A stretch of 64,000 bases of DNA from Marinobacter persicus (GTDB lineage Bacteria; Pseudomonadota; Gammaproteobacteria; Pseudomonadales; Oleiphilaceae), in contig NZ_PTIV01000002.1 in the NCBI RefSeq assembly GCF_002934325.1, positions 124,001-188,000 of the forward strand. Reading direction: 5' to 3'. Every line of letters starts with the position of its first letter. Position 1 is the first letter of the stretch. A program made the position numbers and the translations under genes. Of the stretch, positions 9,197 through 17,375 are shown piece after piece. Under the pieces are notes generated by a model. That model had not been told where the DNA came from and made no database searches. It saw only the letters and a list, made by a program, of their open reading frames with translations.

Positions 9197-9363
9197 GTTT
9201 CTGCCTTCTAATAAAGGGGTGCGTCGTATCCTGGTATCACAGACACTCATAACCGGTGGATGTTACACAAGCCGCAACAATCCGGTCCGGGTATAACGAG
9301 CCACTGTCTCAAGGCTTTACGGTCTGTGATACTCATATAGCTCAACATCAACAGAGGATTGGC

Positions 9364-10116
9364 ATGCTCCTGAACTGGCTCTCCCGTCACCTGGCCGCCT
9401 ACCTTTCCAAACAGGTCACCCAGCGATCGATTCGCACGTCCACCTGGGAAGCCCTGCAAAACTCTCTCAAACCCGGTGACGTATTGCTGGTCGAGGGCAA
9501 CACGCGCATCAGCACCGCCATCAAATACCTGACTCAGTCTACCTGGTCTCACGCGGCACTGTACCTTGGCCCGGACGCCGGTCTGGGAATAAGCTCCACC
9601 GGCGAGCCTCATGTTTTGATTGAGGCGGACCTGGAAGAAGGCATACGGTCCCTGCCGCTGTCGTTCTACCGGCACACCCATACCCGTATCTGCCGTCCGG
9701 TGGGGCTCAGCGACAGTGACATCGAGAAAATCACCGCCTATTCCATCAGCCGCCTGGGCCATCAATACGACCTGAAGAACGTGTGGGACCTGGCCCGTTA
9801 CCTCTGGCCCACGCCACCCGTGCCGTCCCGCTACCGGCGCTCCCTGCTGGAAATGGGCAGTGGCGACCCCACCAGGGCCATCTGCTCCACCTTCATTGCC
9901 GAAGCCTTCCAGCTGCTGCGTTATCCTATCCTGCCGATCATGGTCGACGGCCCGGAATACGACCCGGACAGCGACTGGCGCCGACAGGAAGCTTTCCGCT
10001 CCCGCCACCACTCGCTGTTCGCACCTCGGGATTTCGATGCATCGCCCTATTTTGACGTAATCAAACCCACACTGGAGCAGGGATTTGATTACCGTCAATT
10101 TCAGTGGATTGATTAG
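9364..10116 (+). CDS. YiiX/YebB-like permuted NlpC/P60 cysteine hydrolase
   Basis: This 250-residue protein belongs to the permuted papain-like amidases. The catalytic His appears first in STWSHAALYLG, then the acidic region HVLIEADLEEG, and the nucleophile Cys near the C-terminus in AICSTFIAEAF. LKPGDVLLVEGNTRIS is the typical entry strand. Family members hydrolyse amide or lipid-linked bonds; no substrate can be named. No clear signal peptide is seen. The ATG at 9364 with AGAGG 6 nt upstream was chosen over an upstream extension to 9256. It is divergent from the TVP38-reductase gene and followed by an ECF sigma factor. Confidence 0.75.
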   Translation: MLLNWLSRHLAAYLSKQVTQRSIRTSTWEALQNSLKPGDVLLVEGNTRISTAIKYLTQSTWSHAALYLGPDAGLGISSTGEPHVLIEADLEEGIRSLPLSFYRHTHTRICRPVGLSDSDIEKITAYSISRLGHQYDLKNVWDLARYLWPTPPVPSRYRRSLLEMGSGDPTRAICSTFIAEAFQLLRYPILPIMVDGPEYDPDSDWRRQEAFRSRHHSLFAPRDFDASPYFDVIKPTLEQGFDYRQFQWID

Positions 10117-10141
10117 CTTAACCCCCTCAATGCTCTGGATG

Positions 10142-10179
10142 TTGCTCACCCGATCAACTAGAATTTTTGAGCAATCGCT
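10142..10179 (+). promoter_or_regulatory. Inverted repeat upstream of ECF sigma gene
   Basis: TTGCTCA (10142-10148) and TGAGCAA (10168-10174) form an inverted repeat with a 19-nt spacer directly before the sigma gene. The right arm is part of a 16-mer, TTTTTGAGCAATCGCT (10164-10179), that recurs exactly at 18317-18332 upstream of the HAD gene. It is a candidate operator or shared promoter element; nothing shows which protein binds. Confidence 0.4.
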
Positions 10180-10200
10180 AAAGTATATAAGGGCCAGACC

Positions 10201-10821
10201 ATGGATACATCCCAGGCAACCGGTTCGGAAGAGGAACTGATCGAAAAGCTCAAGGAGCAGGACCCGGCAAGCTATCACCTCGCCGTCAGAACCTACTCCC
10301 CGGGCATGCTGGCGGTGGCCCGCTTTTACCTTGACCCTTCCACGGCCGAGGAGGTGGTCCAGGACTGCTGGGTCACCGTGATTGATGCCATTAACAAATT
10401 CGAGGGTCGTTCTGGCCTGAAAACCTGGCTGCACCGCATTGTCTCCAATCGCTGCAAGAACAAACTGCGTTCCGCCAAACGGGAGGTCTCCACTGACTTT
10501 CAGGAACAACTGGACCCGGATCTGGCCGACCGTTTCAATGCCTCTGGTCGGTGGCAAACGCCGCCAAAGCTGCGCTTTGAAGAAACCGCAGAGTCACTTT
10601 TGGAGAACGGTGCGCTCAGCGACTGCCTGGACAAACACCTGAGCAAGCTTCCCGAAACCCAGCGCAGCGCCCTGATGCTTTACGAAGCGCACCAACATAA
10701 ATCCGAAGATGTCTGTAACATTCTGGATGTGAAACCATCTAACCTGCGTGTACTCTTGCACCGTGCAAGGCAAAAAATCTTCCTGATGGTCGAACACTTC
10801 CAGGAGACCGGCGAATGCTGA
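10201..10821 (+). CDS. ECF-family RNA polymerase sigma factor
   Basis: The 206-residue protein has the two-domain ECF layout. Region 2 spans about residues 25-90 (FYLDPSTAEEVVQDCWVTVI, GRSGLKTWLHRIVSNRC). Region 4 spans about 140-195 (KLPETQRSALMLYEAHQHKS, LRVLLHRARQKI, a helix-turn-helix). It directs RNA polymerase to a stress regulon, probably under control of the overlapping zinc-finger anti-sigma gene, whose ATG lies inside its last codons. The inverted repeat upstream could allow autoregulation. Confidence 0.93.
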   Translation: MDTSQATGSEEELIEKLKEQDPASYHLAVRTYSPGMLAVARFYLDPSTAEEVVQDCWVTVIDAINKFEGRSGLKTWLHRIVSNRCKNKLRSAKREVSTDFQEQLDPDLADRFNASGRWQTPPKLRFEETAESLLENGALSDCLDKHLSKLPETQRSALMLYEAHQHKSEDVCNILDVKPSNLRVLLHRARQKIFLMVEHFQETGEC

Positions 10822-11075
10822 TGTGTAAGGATCTGGCGGGCATCGCCAGTGATTATATCGACGGGGAACTGAGCACCGGGCAGAACCTGTCGGTGAAGTT
10901 CCACCTGATGATGTGTGGCGATTGCCGCACGTTTATCGGCAACCTGCGCATGAGCACCAAACTCATGCAGGCCCACAGTGGCAGTGTGCCGAATGAAGAG
11001 TTTATCCGTGAAATCGACCGGCGGGTTCACGAGGCGCTGGAACAGAAAAAAAGCCGCACAACCGATTCCGATTGA
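10815..11075 (+). CDS. Zinc-finger (zf-HC2) anti-sigma factor
   Basis: This 86-residue soluble protein carries the ZAS signature: an early Cys in MCKDLAGIASDYIDGEL and then HLMMCGDC (HxxxCxxC). These residues bind zinc and let the domain cage an ECF sigma factor, as in ChrR/RsrA-type partners. The start overlaps the sigma gene by 7 bp, so the two are translationally coupled. There is no membrane segment, so sensing is likely cytoplasmic (redox or metal), which is an inference. Confidence 0.88.
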   Translation: MLMCKDLAGIASDYIDGELSTGQNLSVKFHLMMCGDCRTFIGNLRMSTKLMQAHSGSVPNEEFIREIDRRVHEALEQKKSRTTDSD

Positions 11076-11122
11076 ACGACTCAGACGCAATGGCCGTGGC
11101 CGTTACTCTCAGTTACTCCTGA

Positions 11123-11401
11123 CTATTCCTGCAGGGCCCACGCCTGCTTGCGATGGTGCAGATCCTTGCTGACGCTGGTGTAGGTAGACACCAGGTAAGG
11201 CACGCAGTAGGTCAGCACGACTTTGACCCAATCAAACTTCGCCGCCCCATTGAAAGCCTCCCACTGATTGATCACCACCAGAAGACTTCCCACCACCAAG
11301 GCCAGTTTGGCAGCCCGCCTGGGCGTACCATGACTCACGGCCAGTTCACAGGCATCCGCACAGGTGCGAACGGGCGTTTTCAACAGGGCGGGCAAAACCA
11401 T
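11123..11401 (-). CDS. NrtS-like nitrate/nitrite transporter small membrane protein
   Basis: The 92-residue protein has two predicted membrane helices and the motif pattern RRAAKLALVVGSLLVVINQW then LTYCVPYLVSTYTSV, which I associate with the NrtS family linked to nitrate assimilation in marine bacteria. The ATG at 11401, with GGAGG 8 nt upstream, was chosen over a frame extension to 11518 that overlaps the next gene. It converges on the anti-sigma gene. No other nitrate genes lie nearby, so the role is tentative. Confidence 0.6.
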   Translation of the reverse strand: MVLPALLKTPVRTCADACELAVSHGTPRRAAKLALVVGSLLVVINQWEAFNGAAKFDWVKVVLTYCVPYLVSTYTSVSKDLHHRKQAWALQE

Positions 11402-11441
11402 TGCGATTCCTCCGTGGGTTATTTCAGCATTTGACGGGTGA

Positions 11442-13583
11442 TTAAAATTTCCGGGCCAGGGCCGCATGGTCCCGTGCCGGAGCGGGCTTACCAAACAGAA
11501 ACCCCTGCAGTTCGTCACAGTCCGCCCCTGTCAGCCAGGTGGCCTGGGCCTCGGTTTCCACCCCTTCGGCAATCACCTCGCATTCCATGTTGTGGGCCAT
11601 GCTGATGATGCTGCGGCACAGGGCCGCATCCTGGTGATTGCCCGGCAGACCGGTCACAAAGGCCCGGTCAATCTTGATGCGCGAGACCGGCAGCATTTTC
11701 AGATACGCCAGGGAAGAATAGCCGGTGCCAAAGTCGTCCACGGCCACGAGCAACCCCTGCGCCCGGAACTGCCTCAGGGTGGAGAGCGCACAATCAATGT
11801 TTTCCATCAACGCGGTCTCGGTGATTTCCAGTTCCAACTGCCCGGCCTCCACTCGATAGCGCTGCAGCAGCTCGGCAATCCGCTGGCTCAGGGTCGGGTC
11901 ATTAAGTTGCACGGCCGAAACATTGACCGCCACACGGCCCTTAAAGCCTTCGGCGACCCAACCCGACAATTGCGCCACGGCCTGCTCCAGGACCCAGTCA
12001 CCCAATTGCCGTATCAGCCCGGTTTCCTCCGCCAGGGGGATGAATTCTCCAGGGGAGACAAAACCCTGGGCCGGGCGTTGCCAGCGAAGTAACGCTTCAT
12101 AGCCGACAATTCGTCGGGCCTCATCCAGTTGGGGCTGGTAATGAAGCTGAAGCTGCTCGCGCTCCACGGCCACTTTCAGATCCCGCACCAGAGCCTTGCG
12201 GCGCTGTACCTGTTCCCCCAGTTCCGAGGCAAAGAACTGCACCTGTGTGCCGGAGGATTTCTTCGCCCGGTGCATGGCGATTTCCGCATGACTGAGCAGT
12301 GTTCTGGCATCCTGCCCGTCCAGGGGCGCCACCGCCACGCCGGCGCTGAATTCACACTCGTGGGTGTGCCCGTTAATGACAACGGGTGCCTCGCAGGCTT
12401 CGATGATTTTCGAGATTCGGGTTTCGACGGGCTCGTGGTCCGTACCCTGCACCAGCAACCCGAACACATCGCCGCCCAACCGGGCCACATGGCCATGATC
12501 CGAGCTGAAACCCGCCAGCCGCCGGGCGACTTCCTGCAATACCCGGTCACCGATGTCGTGGCCCGCCAGACCGTTTAGGGTCTGAAAATCGTTCAGCCCG
12601 ACCACCATGAGCGCCTCCGTTGCCGGATGCTGGGCCGCCGGCAACCGGAAGAACCGCTCCAGTTGTTCCTCGAACAGATTTCGATTGGCCAGTCCCGTCA
12701 GTTGATCGTACAGGGTGCGGATTTCCAGCTCCTGCTCGGTCCGGCGCAGGGACCGGGTGCGCTCATCCAGCAACTGATCCAGCTCACTATTCAGTTCGTG
12801 CAAACGAGAGAGATAGGAAGCGTTACGGCGAAGCAGGTCGTTGAAGGCCGATTCCACCTCACCGAACTCGTCACACCGTTCCGGGGCTCGGACATATTCA
12901 AGCGGGTGTTCGGCATCGTCGCCGGCCAGACTGATCCTGCCGCGCAATCGCAACAGTGGCGACAGCATCATCCGGTCCACCACTGCCATGGCCACCAGGG
13001 TGACGAAGACGGCAATGAGCAAAGAGAGCCCCAGGATCCGGAACACAAAAGCCACCAGTTCGCCGGGGATCTGGTTCATATTGACAAGCCCCTGAACCCG
13101 ATAGCCGGGTGCCAGTACACCCGAGGGCCAGTTCACGGCCAAATTGCCCGACGCCGTGCGGGCCTGATCTCTAAGCTCACCGCTGGCAGGGCCCGGGTTA
13201 TCAACCGCAGCCCCGGTGGCCAGGTCCTGGGTTTCACCCTTGATAACAATGCCTTCCAGAGGGCTTTGCGCCATCAGACGTTGCAGAGCGTTTTCGGACA
13301 GCCCGCCCGGTTCCGTCTGGGTCAGCAGAGTGGTTAATGCCTGGGCAGCCACATCCACCCGTTGGCGTAAAAGATCTTGTTCATAATTCCGGTAGGAAGG
13401 AATCAGGATGACCATTTCAATCAGCAGGATGGCAAAGAAGGAAGCGGCGGTCAGGTTGCGACACAGCCGACAGCCGACAAAGCGCTTCCACCATCCGATC
13501 AACCCACGGGCCTTCCCTGTTGCCTGTTGTGACCCCTGGATCTGAGCAGCGGGTGCGTCCTGCGTTTCAACAACCGTTTTCAT
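11442..13583 (-). CDS. Membrane GGDEF/EAL protein, probable c-di-GMP phosphodiesterase
   Basis: The 713-residue protein starts with a helix at about 45-64, a periplasmic sensor region (65-175), a second helix (about 178-203), a HAMP-like linker, a GGDEF domain (about 285-450) and an EAL domain (about 465-713). The diguanylate cyclase signature reads GGDVF (370-374), so cyclase activity is probably lost. The EAL motifs are intact: YEALLRW, EITETALM, DDFGTGYSSLAYL and VIAEGVETEAQ. It should hydrolyse c-di-GMP, with the degenerate GGDEF acting as a regulatory site. A CRLC motif sits just before TM1. Confidence 0.93.
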   Translation of the reverse strand: MKTVVETQDAPAAQIQGSQQATGKARGLIGWWKRFVGCRLCRNLTAASFFAILLIEMVILIPSYRNYEQDLLRQRVDVAAQALTTLLTQTEPGGLSENALQRLMAQSPLEGIVIKGETQDLATGAAVDNPGPASGELRDQARTASGNLAVNWPSGVLAPGYRVQGLVNMNQIPGELVAFVFRILGLSLLIAVFVTLVAMAVVDRMMLSPLLRLRGRISLAGDDAEHPLEYVRAPERCDEFGEVESAFNDLLRRNASYLSRLHELNSELDQLLDERTRSLRRTEQELEIRTLYDQLTGLANRNLFEEQLERFFRLPAAQHPATEALMVVGLNDFQTLNGLAGHDIGDRVLQEVARRLAGFSSDHGHVARLGGDVFGLLVQGTDHEPVETRISKIIEACEAPVVINGHTHECEFSAGVAVAPLDGQDARTLLSHAEIAMHRAKKSSGTQVQFFASELGEQVQRRKALVRDLKVAVEREQLQLHYQPQLDEARRIVGYEALLRWQRPAQGFVSPGEFIPLAEETGLIRQLGDWVLEQAVAQLSGWVAEGFKGRVAVNVSAVQLNDPTLSQRIAELLQRYRVEAGQLELEITETALMENIDCALSTLRQFRAQGLLVAVDDFGTGYSSLAYLKMLPVSRIKIDRAFVTGLPGNHQDAALCRSIISMAHNMECEVIAEGVETEAQATWLTGADCDELQGFLFGKPAPARDHAALARKF

Positions 13584-13662: not shown

Positions 13663-13695
13663 AAAAAAAGGCCCGCTCGGGGTCAGAAGCGGGCC
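13663..13695 (-). terminator. Intrinsic terminator of the cytochrome/TTL operon
   Basis: GGCCCGCT (13670-13677) pairs with AGCGGGCC (13688-13695). On the minus strand the stem is followed by seven T residues (complement of A at 13663-13669). It lies 30 bp after the cytochrome stop, ending the right-to-left unit. Confidence 0.9.
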
Positions 13696-13724: not shown

Positions 13725-14411
13725 CTATCGGCCTTTGAATGCCTCCTGTTCCTGGCGCATGAACTCGGTCAGCGCCGCCAGTTGCTGACCATCCCAGTCA
13801 AGTGGCTCGGCGGCCATGGGGGCGACCATACAGATCTGCACCATTTCATCGAGGTACACTTCATCCATATCGAAATCCCTCTGGGCCATGGCCACAGGGT
13901 GGGGGTAGTCGTTTTTGAAGGAGGCAGAATAACCGGCCCCGTTCGCATGGCAGGTGGCGCAGGACAACCCGTTCGAGGACAGGGTCTTGTCGTTGAACAG
14001 TTTTTCACCCTGTGCCACAAGCTTGGCCACATTACCCTGATAAGGGGTGTAGCCCTCGGGGCGGCTCACTGCATCTTTCAGGCTGGCGGAGGAGCCTTCG
14101 GCTTCCGCCTCACCTTCGCCCTCGGCGGCGCCTTCTGCCTCTCCTTCTCCTTCACCTTGCCCTTCTGCTTCCCCTTCGGCCTGGCCCTCAGCTTCCGCCT
14201 GACCTGCTTCGGCTTCACCCTGGGCCTCGCCCTCGGCTTCACCGTAGCCTTCAGCCTCTCCCTGGGCCGCCTCGGCGGAAGGAATCAAGCTGAATGAAGA
14301 AGCATTGCTGTCACTGAAACCGGCCACCGCAACCACCGTCATCATGGGCACGGTGACCACCAGATTTCGGGACAGTTTTCGCAATAGGTCCTTTCGTTTG
14401 TCATCGGCCAT
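13725..14411 (-). CDS. Exported mono-heme cytochrome c with long Glu/Gly/Ala/Gln-rich segment
   Basis: This 228-residue protein has three parts. Residues 1-48 look like a signal peptide (basic start, hydrophobic LVVTVPMMTVVAVAG, possible cleavage after SAEA). Residues 50-106 consist almost only of E, G, A and Q. Residues 120-228 form a class I-like cytochrome domain with CATCH at 151-155 and candidate axial Met 195 or 199. It probably carries electrons in the periplasm. GGAGG 6 nt before the ATG supports the start. It is the last gene after the TTL-like ligase and the DinB-fold gene. The acidic segment looks like a tubulin C-terminal tail, the natural substrate type of TTL-family ligases, which makes the neighbourhood striking. 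Confidence 0.85.
   Translation of the reverse strand: MADDKRKDLLRKLSRNLVVTVPMMTVVAVAGFSDSNASSFSLIPSAEAAQGEAEGYGEAEGEAQGEAEAGQAEAEGQAEGEAEGQGEGEGEAEGAAEGEGEAEAEGSSASLKDAVSRPEGYTPYQGNVAKLVAQGEKLFNDKTLSSNGLSCATCHANGAGYSASFKNDYPHPVAMAQRDFDMDEVYLDEMVQICMVAPMAAEPLDWDGQQLAALTEFMRQEQEAFKGR
14094..14264 (-). repeat. Coding low-complexity repeat (GEAEG-type) in cytochrome gene
   Basis: These 171 bases encode 57 residues of degenerate GEAEG/GEGEG/GQAEA units. Codons are mixed GAA/GAG and GCC/GCT/GCG, so it is a protein-level repeat rather than a perfect DNA tandem repeat. It may still vary in length between strains by slippage. Confidence 0.85.
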
Positions 14412-14464
14412 ATCGTCCTCCGATCATCCTGTTGTTGTCGAAACGAGAGCAAAGTTGCCCGCTC

Positions 14465-15073
14465 TCAAGACACCGACACCCCACTACCGGCATTGTTACA
14501 GGCGCTCTTTTTACTCCCACCGTTTTTTTCTTCCTGTTGAGCCCAATACCGCAGGGTTGAAGGGTTAACACCAAAACTCTCATCCACCTGCTGGCCAGCC
14601 TGCTCTGCAAGCAAACCGATGATGGCCATATGGTGCACAGTGTGATTGGCCAGAAAGACCAGTTCCCGTCCGACACTGCTCGAAAATAACTGGTGATGTC
14701 CCTCACTGTTATGATTCAGCACAAACGGCTTCACTGGTTTATCCCGCAGAATTCCTGACAGCTCCCGGGCCAGGCCCACCAGGCAATGGATTGCGGACTC
14801 CCGATCCTCTTCCAGCGCTACATCCCGCTGGCGCTGTTCATAGTCAAGCGCCTCGTCGGCACCTTTGCCCGCCAGTCCCAGAAACGTGAGGTAATGGTCG
14901 ATAACATGCCGAACGTGCTTGCCAATGCTGTGTTGACCGCGATTTCCGGAGACGCCCCGGTACAAAGCATCATCCAGGCTTTCAAGAAAGGCGGTTAGCT
15001 GAGCAAGGGTATGCATGTTTTCATCGATAATGGGGCTGACAAACTCCTCAGCCTTCCAGTCTGGCAAAGTCAT
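14465..15073 (-). CDS. DinB/YfiT-fold putative metal-binding protein
   Basis: This 202-residue protein is a predicted four-helix DinB-like protein. It has a metal triad of histidines: HVRHVIDHY near residue 50 and ELVFLANHTVHHMAII near residue 145. DinB-like proteins include thiol-dependent transferases and many uncharacterised members. The ATG at 15073 has AGGAGG 8 nt upstream and lies inside the end of the TTL gene (26-bp overlap), so the two are translationally coupled. The stop overlaps a small GAGAGC/GCTCTC hairpin (14445-14466). Its role with the ligase is unknown. Confidence 0.75.
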   Translation of the reverse strand: MTLPDWKAEEFVSPIIDENMHTLAQLTAFLESLDDALYRGVSGNRGQHSIGKHVRHVIDHYLTFLGLAGKGADEALDYEQRQRDVALEEDRESAIHCLVGLARELSGILRDKPVKPFVLNHNSEGHHQLFSSSVGRELVFLANHTVHHMAIIGLLAEQAGQQVDESFGVNPSTLRYWAQQEEKNGGSKKSACNNAGSGVSVS

Positions 15074-17375
15074 GGTGCCCACCTCCTGTTTTCACGATGT
15101 TTTCCAGAACCTCTGCAGCGGCACCGGGCTCCCGGCAATCGACCAGCCAGCACTCCCGGGCTTCAACCCAGCTTGATAGGGCCGTAAACTCACCGGCGCT
15201 CAGGGGTCGGCCACCAACCCCACAACAGATCGGAAGCATGTGTTGGAGTACCTCGCCAACGGTCAGGCGGCGGGCGACGATCCTGGTCGTCGGGTTCTGC
15301 GGCAAGGGCGCGGGAATCAGGATGGCAGAGACAAAGCACGACCCACCGGTAGCCGGCGTGGCCAGTGGTTCCACGCGATCATAGGCACCCAGCAACAGCC
15401 CACGGCCAATGGTGGCTTGCAATGCACTGGACAGGCTTTCCTGCAGGCCCTGTCCTCCGGCAGCAACCATCACCGTCTGGCCTGCCACCCCCGGCATCAA
15501 CAGCACACTGGCATCCATGGCGATATCGCCTGGCCCAGGCGCCTCGCGCATCAGGCAGGTGAACAGCGCTTCGGACATAGCGCTCAGCGGCCGCCGGGAG
15601 ACCACCACCTCGCCATCCAGAATCATTGTGTAGCCCGGGGCATCCCGAACGATGCAAAGCTCGGGCAGGCTGTCCGGGGCAGGATGCTCCGTTACGTGGA
15701 ACCGCTCGATCATTGGGTGGATGTACTCACGCAATGGCATGCTGTCGACCTGCAAGCGCACCATGGCACGACCGGATTGCAGGACCGTCGATAGCCAGGT
15801 AACCGGCAGTTGAGGACGTTCTTCACGGGCCGCCTGTTCGCCTTGCCCGTCACCGAATTGACTGTCACTGGCTTGCACGAGGAAACGATTGCCAGCCCAA
15901 TCCGCCAGCGTATCCCAGACCTGTTGGCGAATAGGCCAGGCGTCCGGCGGGCCGGCCTGGGTGTGGAGCGCGGATTCGAGCAATGTCGAGGCAATTGCGT
16001 CCGGGCCGGCACCCTCCGTCGCCATCAACCAGATTACCGAGGCGGTTTCATTCAGGGCGCTGAAATGACCAAGGCGGGTGTCGTAGAGCAGGACCTGTTC
16101 ATCGGTGACCATTTCTTCGGCCACCCATCGCTCCATAGCGGGTTGGGGAAGTGGTTTCCCCGACAGGGACTGAGCCAACACCCAATCCTCAAGGCGGGGC
16201 AGGGCCATGTACGGCAGGTAGCGTGAGGGGGCCACACCCGGAATCAGATTTCTGAAGCCACCACTGCGGCTTAATTCTTCGCGGGTCTGCTGAATAACTT
16301 GTTGCTCCGGGGACTGGTCCGGTTCGCCTTTGATGGGCCGATTCAATCCCACCAGTTCCACGAGATCGGCCACCAGGCCGCCCTTGATGGTTTCCTCAAT
16401 CCGACCGCCACTTTCGGGGCCGGCACACACTTCCAGGGACGGGCTGAGGTTGCACTCCAGCACCCAGGGCTTTAGGTCCTCATCAATCAGGCAATCGATA
16501 CCCATCAGCTCATAGCAGCCCCGGGGATCGGCGCCAATGGCGCGGCACCGTTCACGCATGGGCTCCTGCGCGGCCAGACAAGTCAACGCCACTGCATCGT
16601 CAATGCGGGCAAACAGGGCCTGGTCGTCATGCCCCTGCTCACGCAGCCAGGCCCGGTAGCGGTCGAAATCGACGAACTCCACCGGCACTTCGGCCTCAAG
16701 ATTGAGCGCGTTGATATCCGGGTTAGTCAGGTAACTGTAGGGGTTGCTGGCGTTTTCATCGTTGTAGGGCAAGGAGGCCAGCTTGGCAAAACCCTGGTGA
16801 TAGACGTAAACCCGGAAGGGGGTCACGGAAGAAACCAGTACGTACAGGCGCAGCACATATTTGCGGCCGTGCATGGTGTGCGGATGTTCCAGATATTCCT
16901 GTATCAGCCAGGAGGCGTCCATGGGCACATTGGCGGGGTCATCGACCAACCGGATCCCCTTGCCCTTGGATGCATTCTTGGGCTTTAAAAGCCAGCGCTT
17001 TTCCGGGTTTTCCCACGCAGCCTGCTGGAAGTAGTGGTAATCCTCGGGCATGGAGTAGACATGGGGCATAAAATCCAGCCGCCGGGTCCGGGGGCCGACG
17101 CCTTTTTCCTGGCGTTGGACCCGGTCTTTCAGGTCCATCACACTTCGGTAAAGCCGACTTTTGACCGTCAGGACGTTATTGCCGGGGATGTGGTTGATCT
17201 TGCGCTCTGGCCCCACTTTCTCGAAATATTCAGGGCCCGGCATTCCGGTGTACCAGCAAGCCTGCCAGTCTTCCGCGCTTTTTGCCCTTTGCCATTGCGC
17301 CTTGTCCAGGGACGCTTCGAAAAAGCGATCCTGCTCATAGGAGCGGTTGCCACCCATCCAGTAGTGCCGTGTCAT
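15048..17375 (-). CDS. Tubulin-tyrosine-ligase-like ATP-grasp enzyme fused to PqqD-like and HprK-like domains
   Basis: The 775-residue protein has three regions. Residues 60-345 match the TTL/TTLL ATP-grasp fold: WLLKPKNASKGKGI (127-141), IQEYLEHPHTMHGRKYVLRL (158-177), YHQGFAKLA, LTNPDI, and YELMGIDCLIDEDLKPWVLE followed by CNLSPS with E307 and N309 as Mg-ATP ligands. Residues 420-500 resemble PqqD/RRE peptide-binding domains (EQVLLYDTRLGHFSALNETA, then VIWLMATEG). Residues 525-775 resemble the PqqD-linked HprK-related proteins, but the P-loop position reads MPGVAGQTVMVAAGG, so kinase activity is doubtful. TTL-family enzymes ligate an amino acid to a protein carboxylate. The ATG at 17375 was chosen; an open frame continues to 17933 but would run over the divergent gene. 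Confidence 0.8.
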   Translation of the reverse strand: MTRHYWMGGNRSYEQDRFFEASLDKAQWQRAKSAEDWQACWYTGMPGPEYFEKVGPERKINHIPGNNVLTVKSRLYRSVMDLKDRVQRQEKGVGPRTRRLDFMPHVYSMPEDYHYFQQAAWENPEKRWLLKPKNASKGKGIRLVDDPANVPMDASWLIQEYLEHPHTMHGRKYVLRLYVLVSSVTPFRVYVYHQGFAKLASLPYNDENASNPYSYLTNPDINALNLEAEVPVEFVDFDRYRAWLREQGHDDQALFARIDDAVALTCLAAQEPMRERCRAIGADPRGCYELMGIDCLIDEDLKPWVLECNLSPSLEVCAGPESGGRIEETIKGGLVADLVELVGLNRPIKGEPDQSPEQQVIQQTREELSRSGGFRNLIPGVAPSRYLPYMALPRLEDWVLAQSLSGKPLPQPAMERWVAEEMVTDEQVLLYDTRLGHFSALNETASVIWLMATEGAGPDAIASTLLESALHTQAGPPDAWPIRQQVWDTLADWAGNRFLVQASDSQFGDGQGEQAAREERPQLPVTWLSTVLQSGRAMVRLQVDSMPLREYIHPMIERFHVTEHPAPDSLPELCIVRDAPGYTMILDGEVVVSRRPLSAMSEALFTCLMREAPGPGDIAMDASVLLMPGVAGQTVMVAAGGQGLQESLSSALQATIGRGLLLGAYDRVEPLATPATGGSCFVSAILIPAPLPQNPTTRIVARRLTVGEVLQHMLPICCGVGGRPLSAGEFTALSSWVEARECWLVDCREPGAAAEVLENIVKTGGGHHDFARLEG

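Follow-up and report, generated by a model that had tools for sequence, protein, structure and literature searches.

We analysed a 64,000-nucleotide stretch of Marinobacter persicus DNA (contig NZ_PTIV01000002.1; the whole stretch is called the window below and provides all window coordinates) containing a locus in which a ligase related to tubulin polyglutamylases is encoded beside its predicted substrate, a c-type cytochrome with a leader and an acidic tail. Three consecutive minus-strand genes encode the ligase (15048-17375; 775 amino acids), a DinB-fold protein (14465-15073; 202 amino acids), and the leader-tail cytochrome c (13725-14411; 228 amino acids). The ligase and DinB genes overlap by 26 bases, in agreement with a preliminary description of this DNA that listed three co-directional genes, the first two overlapping. 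The terminator that it placed at the end of the locus corresponds to a hairpin with a 9-pair stem followed by a T-run (13670-13695, minus strand), the number of terminator-like sites in the scan (three, against a mean of 4.3 in shuffles) being no higher than in shuffles and by itself uninformative.

The ligase contains a TTLL-type ATP-grasp core (16206-17375; residues 1-390), a PqqD-like RRE, that is, a recognition element of ribosomally synthesized and post-translationally modified peptides (RiPPs) (15870-16136; residues 414-502), and a domain of PEPCK/HprK-like fold lacking a P-loop motif (15051-15806; residues about 524-775), all on the minus strand. TTL (PF03133) is its best Pfam match (E 1e-54; 186.2 bits against a cut-off of 20.1), the TTLL-type ATP-grasp fold and the conserved ATP/Mg residues are present, and the nearest solved relatives of the core, by sequence and predicted fold, are TTLL6, TTLL7, and TTLL11. 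Judged by sequence, the core is of TTLL6 type, i.e. of the tubulin polyglutamylase type. In a structure model, the RRE superposes on TbiB1 over 83 of 84 residues (root-mean-square deviation 1.7) and is predicted to be a leader-binding RRE of the lasso type; among the C-terminal parts of relatives, 52 of 54 match PqqD at E <= 0.01 (best 2.1e-9). The leader-docking role that the preliminary description gave to the PqqD-like domain is thus borne out at the level of the model, and the third, PEPCK/HprK-like domain had been overlooked. The model places the RRE after the core, and no microtubule-binding part was recognised, absence from the match list not being proof. Relatives of the ligase are labelled in databases as 'amylase', 'tubulin polyglutamylase TTLL5', or 'PqqD family peptide modification chaperone'.

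The cytochrome is composed of a leader (14268-14411; residues 1-48), a tail (14094-14264; residues 50-106), and a cytochrome domain with one CxxCH (13728-14063; residues 117-228), all on the minus strand; Pfam SoxA-TsdA_cyt-c matches residues 134-220 (1.6e-7; 31.7 bits against a cut-off of 27). The tail was earlier described as nearly all E, G, A, and Q, and counting gives 21 E, 16 G, 14 A, 5 Q, and 1 Y. It is encoded by mixed synonymous codons and is therefore not a fresh DNA repeat; slippage was rejected as its origin on this ground, a tandem repeat finder reporting only short imperfect arrays. When a profile of the leader was run on the window's own genome, the cytochrome was the only match (E 4.3e-14). 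NCBIfam names were set aside for the leader-tail proteins, the only hits being low-complexity ones to unrelated families and weak ones to cytochromes.

Scanning named bacterial genomes gave 102 confirmed relatives of the ligase, the best 80 of which were analysed as loci. A protein with the shared leader and an E/G/A tail lies near the ligase in 79 of the 80 (78 by script and L077 by eye), so that 79/80 loci show the RiPP arrangement of a modifying enzyme next to a ribosomal precursor whose leader is conserved and whose core varies. Most commonly this is a separate small protein, starting no more than 1.5 kb downstream of the ligase on the same strand in 72 of 80 loci (71 by script plus L077); the acidic cytochrome is present in 30 of 80, several misses being cut contigs. 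Unlike most relatives, the window has no small leader-tail protein between ligase and DinB. The earlier view of the acidic cytochrome as the substrate therefore stands for the window, where it is the predicted substrate, and has to be amended for most relatives, in which the predicted substrate is mainly the small leader-tail protein.

Glu, Ala, and Gly make up 42%, 27%, and 26% of 101 tails, and Glu alternates with Gly or Ala: a Glu adjoins another Glu in 29 of 1810 cases, whereas 200 within-tail shuffles gave a mean of 1174 and never fewer than 1122, and although the tails were selected as E/G/A-rich runs, that selection does not favour separated Glu. The tail is internal, N-terminal to the heme domain, in 30 of 30 leader-tail cytochromes, and 83 of 87 small proteins have it no more than 6 residues from the C-terminus. 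The latter position would suit a ligase that extends the C-terminus of tail proteins in the manner of RimK, TTL, or TTLL11 instead of branching Glu side chains, and TTLL11 and TTLL6 are able to extend main chains (PMC12366701, partial text). C-terminal addition could not, however, touch the cytochrome tails, as these lie before the heme domain, and the elongase-determining place holds K or R, not Q, in 74 of 74 cases, which makes C-terminal extension unlikely. Crosslinking within the tail, graspetide-style, rather than addition of free amino acids, would agree with the nature of graspetide enzymes, ATP-grasp ligases whose precursors are leader-guided and rich in Glu/Asp (PMC8939145, as far as its available portion goes). 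The longest E/G/A run, on the other hand, lacks K, S, T, C, Y, and H for ring closure in 47 of 117 tails, and the core is TTLL-type with TTL as best Pfam match, so we regard crosslinking as very improbable. Both tail positions under one chemistry, together with the lack of ring-closing residues, point to free amino acids on Glu side chains. We favour, with some reserve, a leader-guided addition of amino acids, probably Glu, onto the side chains of tail Glu before export.

Co-occurrence was assessed in whole families, since the ligase was found in 3 of 274 genomes of a ranked order sample, which was too sparse. In the window's family (144 genomes), 29 genomes gave ligase matches, comprising 27 near-complete ligases (two of them split over two frames) and fragments in G360 and G373, while the leader was found in 28, comprising all 27 and G336, which has a decayed cytochrome with the leader retained and no near-complete ligase. 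From a second, Halomonas-type family, that of G196, 181 genomes were drawn evenly; ligase matches occurred in 38 (37 near-complete and a fragment in G418) and the leader in 38 (the same 37 and G509). Over both families (325 genomes), the leader is thus present in 64/64 genomes with a near-complete ligase versus 2/261 without (Fisher 3.7e-66, kinship uncorrected). Among 268 genomes sampled across the class, three have both ligase and leader, namely G710, G807, and the window's own G000, an assembly of 94 contigs. One genome, G784, has a leader without a ligase match. Some Marinobacter and Halomonas carry a TTLL-core enzyme together with leader/E-G-A-tail proteins, and the association of the ligase with these proteins exceeds chance.

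The cytochrome domain itself served as a control. It occurs in 61 of the 144 genomes of the window's family, namely the 27 with near-complete ligases, the decayed G336, G360, and G373, and 31 others. In all 31 of the latter, one of which (L160) is a short open frame missing its front part, the protein carries five or more NPC repeats (NPCAAK type) and no E/G/A run; consequently, the acidic tail tracks the ligase and not the cytochrome. The preliminary description had expected the acidic segment only alongside the ligase, which the leader counts and the 31 NPC-rich relatives uphold, and had held that widespread acidic cytochromes without a ligase would count against it; the search yielded one clear case (G509) in 261. 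These data also bear on an alternative in which the acidic tail stays unmodified, as a salt-adapted linker or a metal sponge, and the ligase acts on something else in the operon. Host genera are largely salt-loving, acidic low-complexity segments are common in proteins of such hosts, and G509 retains its acidic cytochrome without a ligase. This explanation is nevertheless unlikely given the leader/ligase co-occurrence, the other repeat borne by ligase-less cytochromes of the same family, and the pairing of an RRE-type motif in the leader with an RRE in the ligase.

The leader has a consensus of about KRxxLLxxLSRxLxYTAPxLxxVAGG in a 39-row alignment whose rows were chosen with the motif in mind. 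The motif is [Y/V]xxPx[L/M/F], with Y at the first position in 73 among 86 small proteins; the 28 cytochrome leaders have V or I there in 18 cases and Y in 7. The motif is of the type bound by lasso RREs, which recognise [Y/W]xxPx[L/V/I/F/A] with known hydrophobic substitutions (PMC13381572 and PMC12710340, both in part). The leader probably doubles as an export signal, and bufferins provide a precedent for RiPP-like proteins exported with Sec signals (PMC12452194, in the text accessible).

Set beside the observed domain order, shared leader, tail composition, co-occurrence, and cytochrome control, the proposed side-chain ligation would proceed as follows. The RRE would capture the leader of the substrate protein in the cytoplasm via the YxxPxL-type motif, and the ligase would then use ATP to join a free amino acid, probably glutamate, to the gamma-carboxylate of the alternating tail Glu residues. 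ATP is cytoplasmic and c-type heme attachment happens outside the cytoplasm, so modification would precede export. The resulting branched anionic tail may serve outside the cytoplasm, perhaps, as a guess, by binding cations or metals.

Several observations weigh against this reading. Tubulin tails carry Glu runs, unlike the isolated Glu found here. The window's own PqqD match (17.2 bits) falls under the Pfam cut-off of 23.4, the Z-score of the PEPCK-like domain (12.3) is middling, and V-T-V-P-M-M replaces YxxPxL in the window's leader, with V in place of Y as in many cytochrome leaders. One locus, L060, shows no leader-tail protein in the 11 kb examined. G509 (L123, 6780-7487) encodes an intact acidic leader-tail cytochrome with no ligase match, being either a true exception or an assembly gap, and in G745 of the class-wide sample the TTL protein consists of the core alone, with no match to an RRE or to the leader. 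Four ligase-less genomes of the window's family encode distant DinB homologues (31-36% identity). Because the leader profile was derived from ligase loci, it might miss divergent leaders in genomes that lack a ligase, and the Fisher value takes no account of kinship.

The second gene product matches DinB_2 (29.8 bits against a cut-off of 24.8; 8.9e-7) and DinB (27.9 against 23). Six His residues (H53, H56, H60, H144, H147, and H148) are conserved in 99-100% of 73 rows, and the protein is likely a metal-dependent accessory enzyme. A homologue is found in 72 of the 80 ligase loci, several misses being cut contigs, and, within the window's family, in all 27 genomes with near-complete ligases and in the remnant G360.

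Comparison with known systems reveals partial likenesses. The tubulin polyglutamylases TTLL6, TTLL7, and TTLL11 share the ATP-grasp core, and the predicted substrates are likewise disordered Glu-rich tails; this ligase, however, is bacterial and fused to an RRE and a PEPCK/HprK-like domain, its substrates bear leaders, their Glu alternate with Gly or Ala, and K/R occupies the elongase-determining place. With lasso B1 and other RRE-guided RiPP systems it has in common an RRE fold near TbiB1 and a YxxPxL-type leader motif, and the HprK-like domain is a frequent companion in HprK-kinase LPP clusters (PMC13381572, in part). It differs from them in having a TTLL-type primary enzyme, an HprK-like domain without a P-loop motif, a leader that is probably also an export signal, and substrates that include a whole cytochrome. 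A B2 leader peptidase and a C cyclase were not among the eight window proteins scanned, and recurrent neighbours are only partly annotated. The combination of acidic residues with ring-closing nucleophiles that marks graspetide cores is absent from the longest E/G/A run of the 47 tails counted above. MNIO-modified bufferins combine Sec signal peptides, modification before export, and protein-sized substrates, all likewise proposed here, and in some loci a nearby DoxX (PMC12452194, partial text), as seen here; they differ in that no Cys-based core and no MNIO enzyme were recognised in the scanned window genes, which encode an amino-acid ligase instead. RimK, the ribosomal protein S6 glutamate ligase, provides bacterial ATP-grasp protein glutamylation (PMC11957791, from the portion available), as proposed here too, but extends the C-terminus of a cytoplasmic protein without RRE, leader, or export. 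The literature searched held no description of such a TTL-like ligase/RRE system, broader queries having been made at overview level only, and literature joining the RiPP recognition element and tubulin concerned plant cyclopeptides. RiPP-style leader capture and TTLL chemistry are each known; no published account that unites the two on exported tails was found.

A second type of catalytic head was encountered in G784, which belongs to another order than the window. Here, the leader profile weakly matches (E 9.6e-5) a protein that has a Pro/Thr-rich tail after the leader and is encoded directly upstream of a 610-amino-acid protein with a 2-oxoglutarate (2OG)-Fe(II) oxygenase domain and a PqqD match above cut-off, whose post-oxygenase part is homologous to the RRE plus PEPCK/HprK-like half of the window ligase (333 columns; E 1.1e-11; probability 97.4%). 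A protein search with this variant gave four relatives without genomic context; it was found in none of 239 genomes of the window's order and, among 3 genomes of G784's order, in G784 alone. The 49 matches in viral contigs (25-44% identity) are confined to the oxygenase part and its edge. As these searches yielded no second case, the leader plus Pro/Thr tail combination is known from a single locus, which breaks off where its contig ends. This locus hints that, with the chassis kept, head and tail chemistry vary jointly. We tentatively raise, as possible though not probable, a modular 'tail code' in which one leader type and one RRE plus PEPCK/HprK-like chassis would serve different catalytic heads and matching low-complexity exported tails, a TTLL head polyglutamylating Glu/Gly/Ala tails and a 2OG-Fe(II) oxygenase head hydroxylating Pro/Thr tails; the former would amount to tubulin-tail polyglutamylation in prokaryotic form, guided by a leader in place of the microtubule.

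If side-chain ligation onto these tails is true, it would constitute a bacterial counterpart of the tubulin code, join this field with the separate one of leader-guided RiPP biosynthesis, and define a new RiPP-like class whose main step is amino-acid ligation. It would also offer a simple bacterial model of TTLL chemistry with a minimal repeating substrate, bear on the origin of TTLL enzymes, and account for the variously labelled database proteins mentioned above.

A number of further features were recorded. Phage origin of the ligase or DinB-fold protein was set aside, neither having a PHROG match, as were plasmid copies of the ligase, a plasmid search being without match. The ligase is split over two frames with the leader retained in L023 (7929-10434), L019 (2387-4857), G341, and G358, the break in L023 and G341 lying near residue 460, within the RRE. 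A core-only TTL protein of 367 amino acids without RRE is followed in L165 (1426-3471) by a 248-amino-acid exported-looking protein without leader match. Some Ectothiorhodospiraceae- and Chromohalobacter-type loci have the gene of a small membrane protein between those of the ligase and the small leader-tail protein, as with DoxX in L174 (5345-5764) and similarly in L066 (10377-10811). The 2OG-Fe(II) oxygenase, PqqD, and PEPCK/HprK-like protein of L172 (2714-4785) neighbours the leader-bearing Pro/Thr-rich tail protein and an NTP_transf_5 gene. NPCAAK-rich cytochromes of ligase-less relatives (L131-L161) have a different conserved N-terminus, MSTIHPLRKAIR...WWSA, and one in L169 (4136-8216) lies beside DUF6969 and DUF3179 genes. 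Their neighbours match the kinds found in the window, namely an ECF sigma factor, a zf-HC2 anti-sigma factor, and a GGDEF-EAL protein (L170, 4298-11464; window, 9256-13583), and it appears that this chromosomal neighbourhood can hold either of two tail modules, acidic or NPCAAK.

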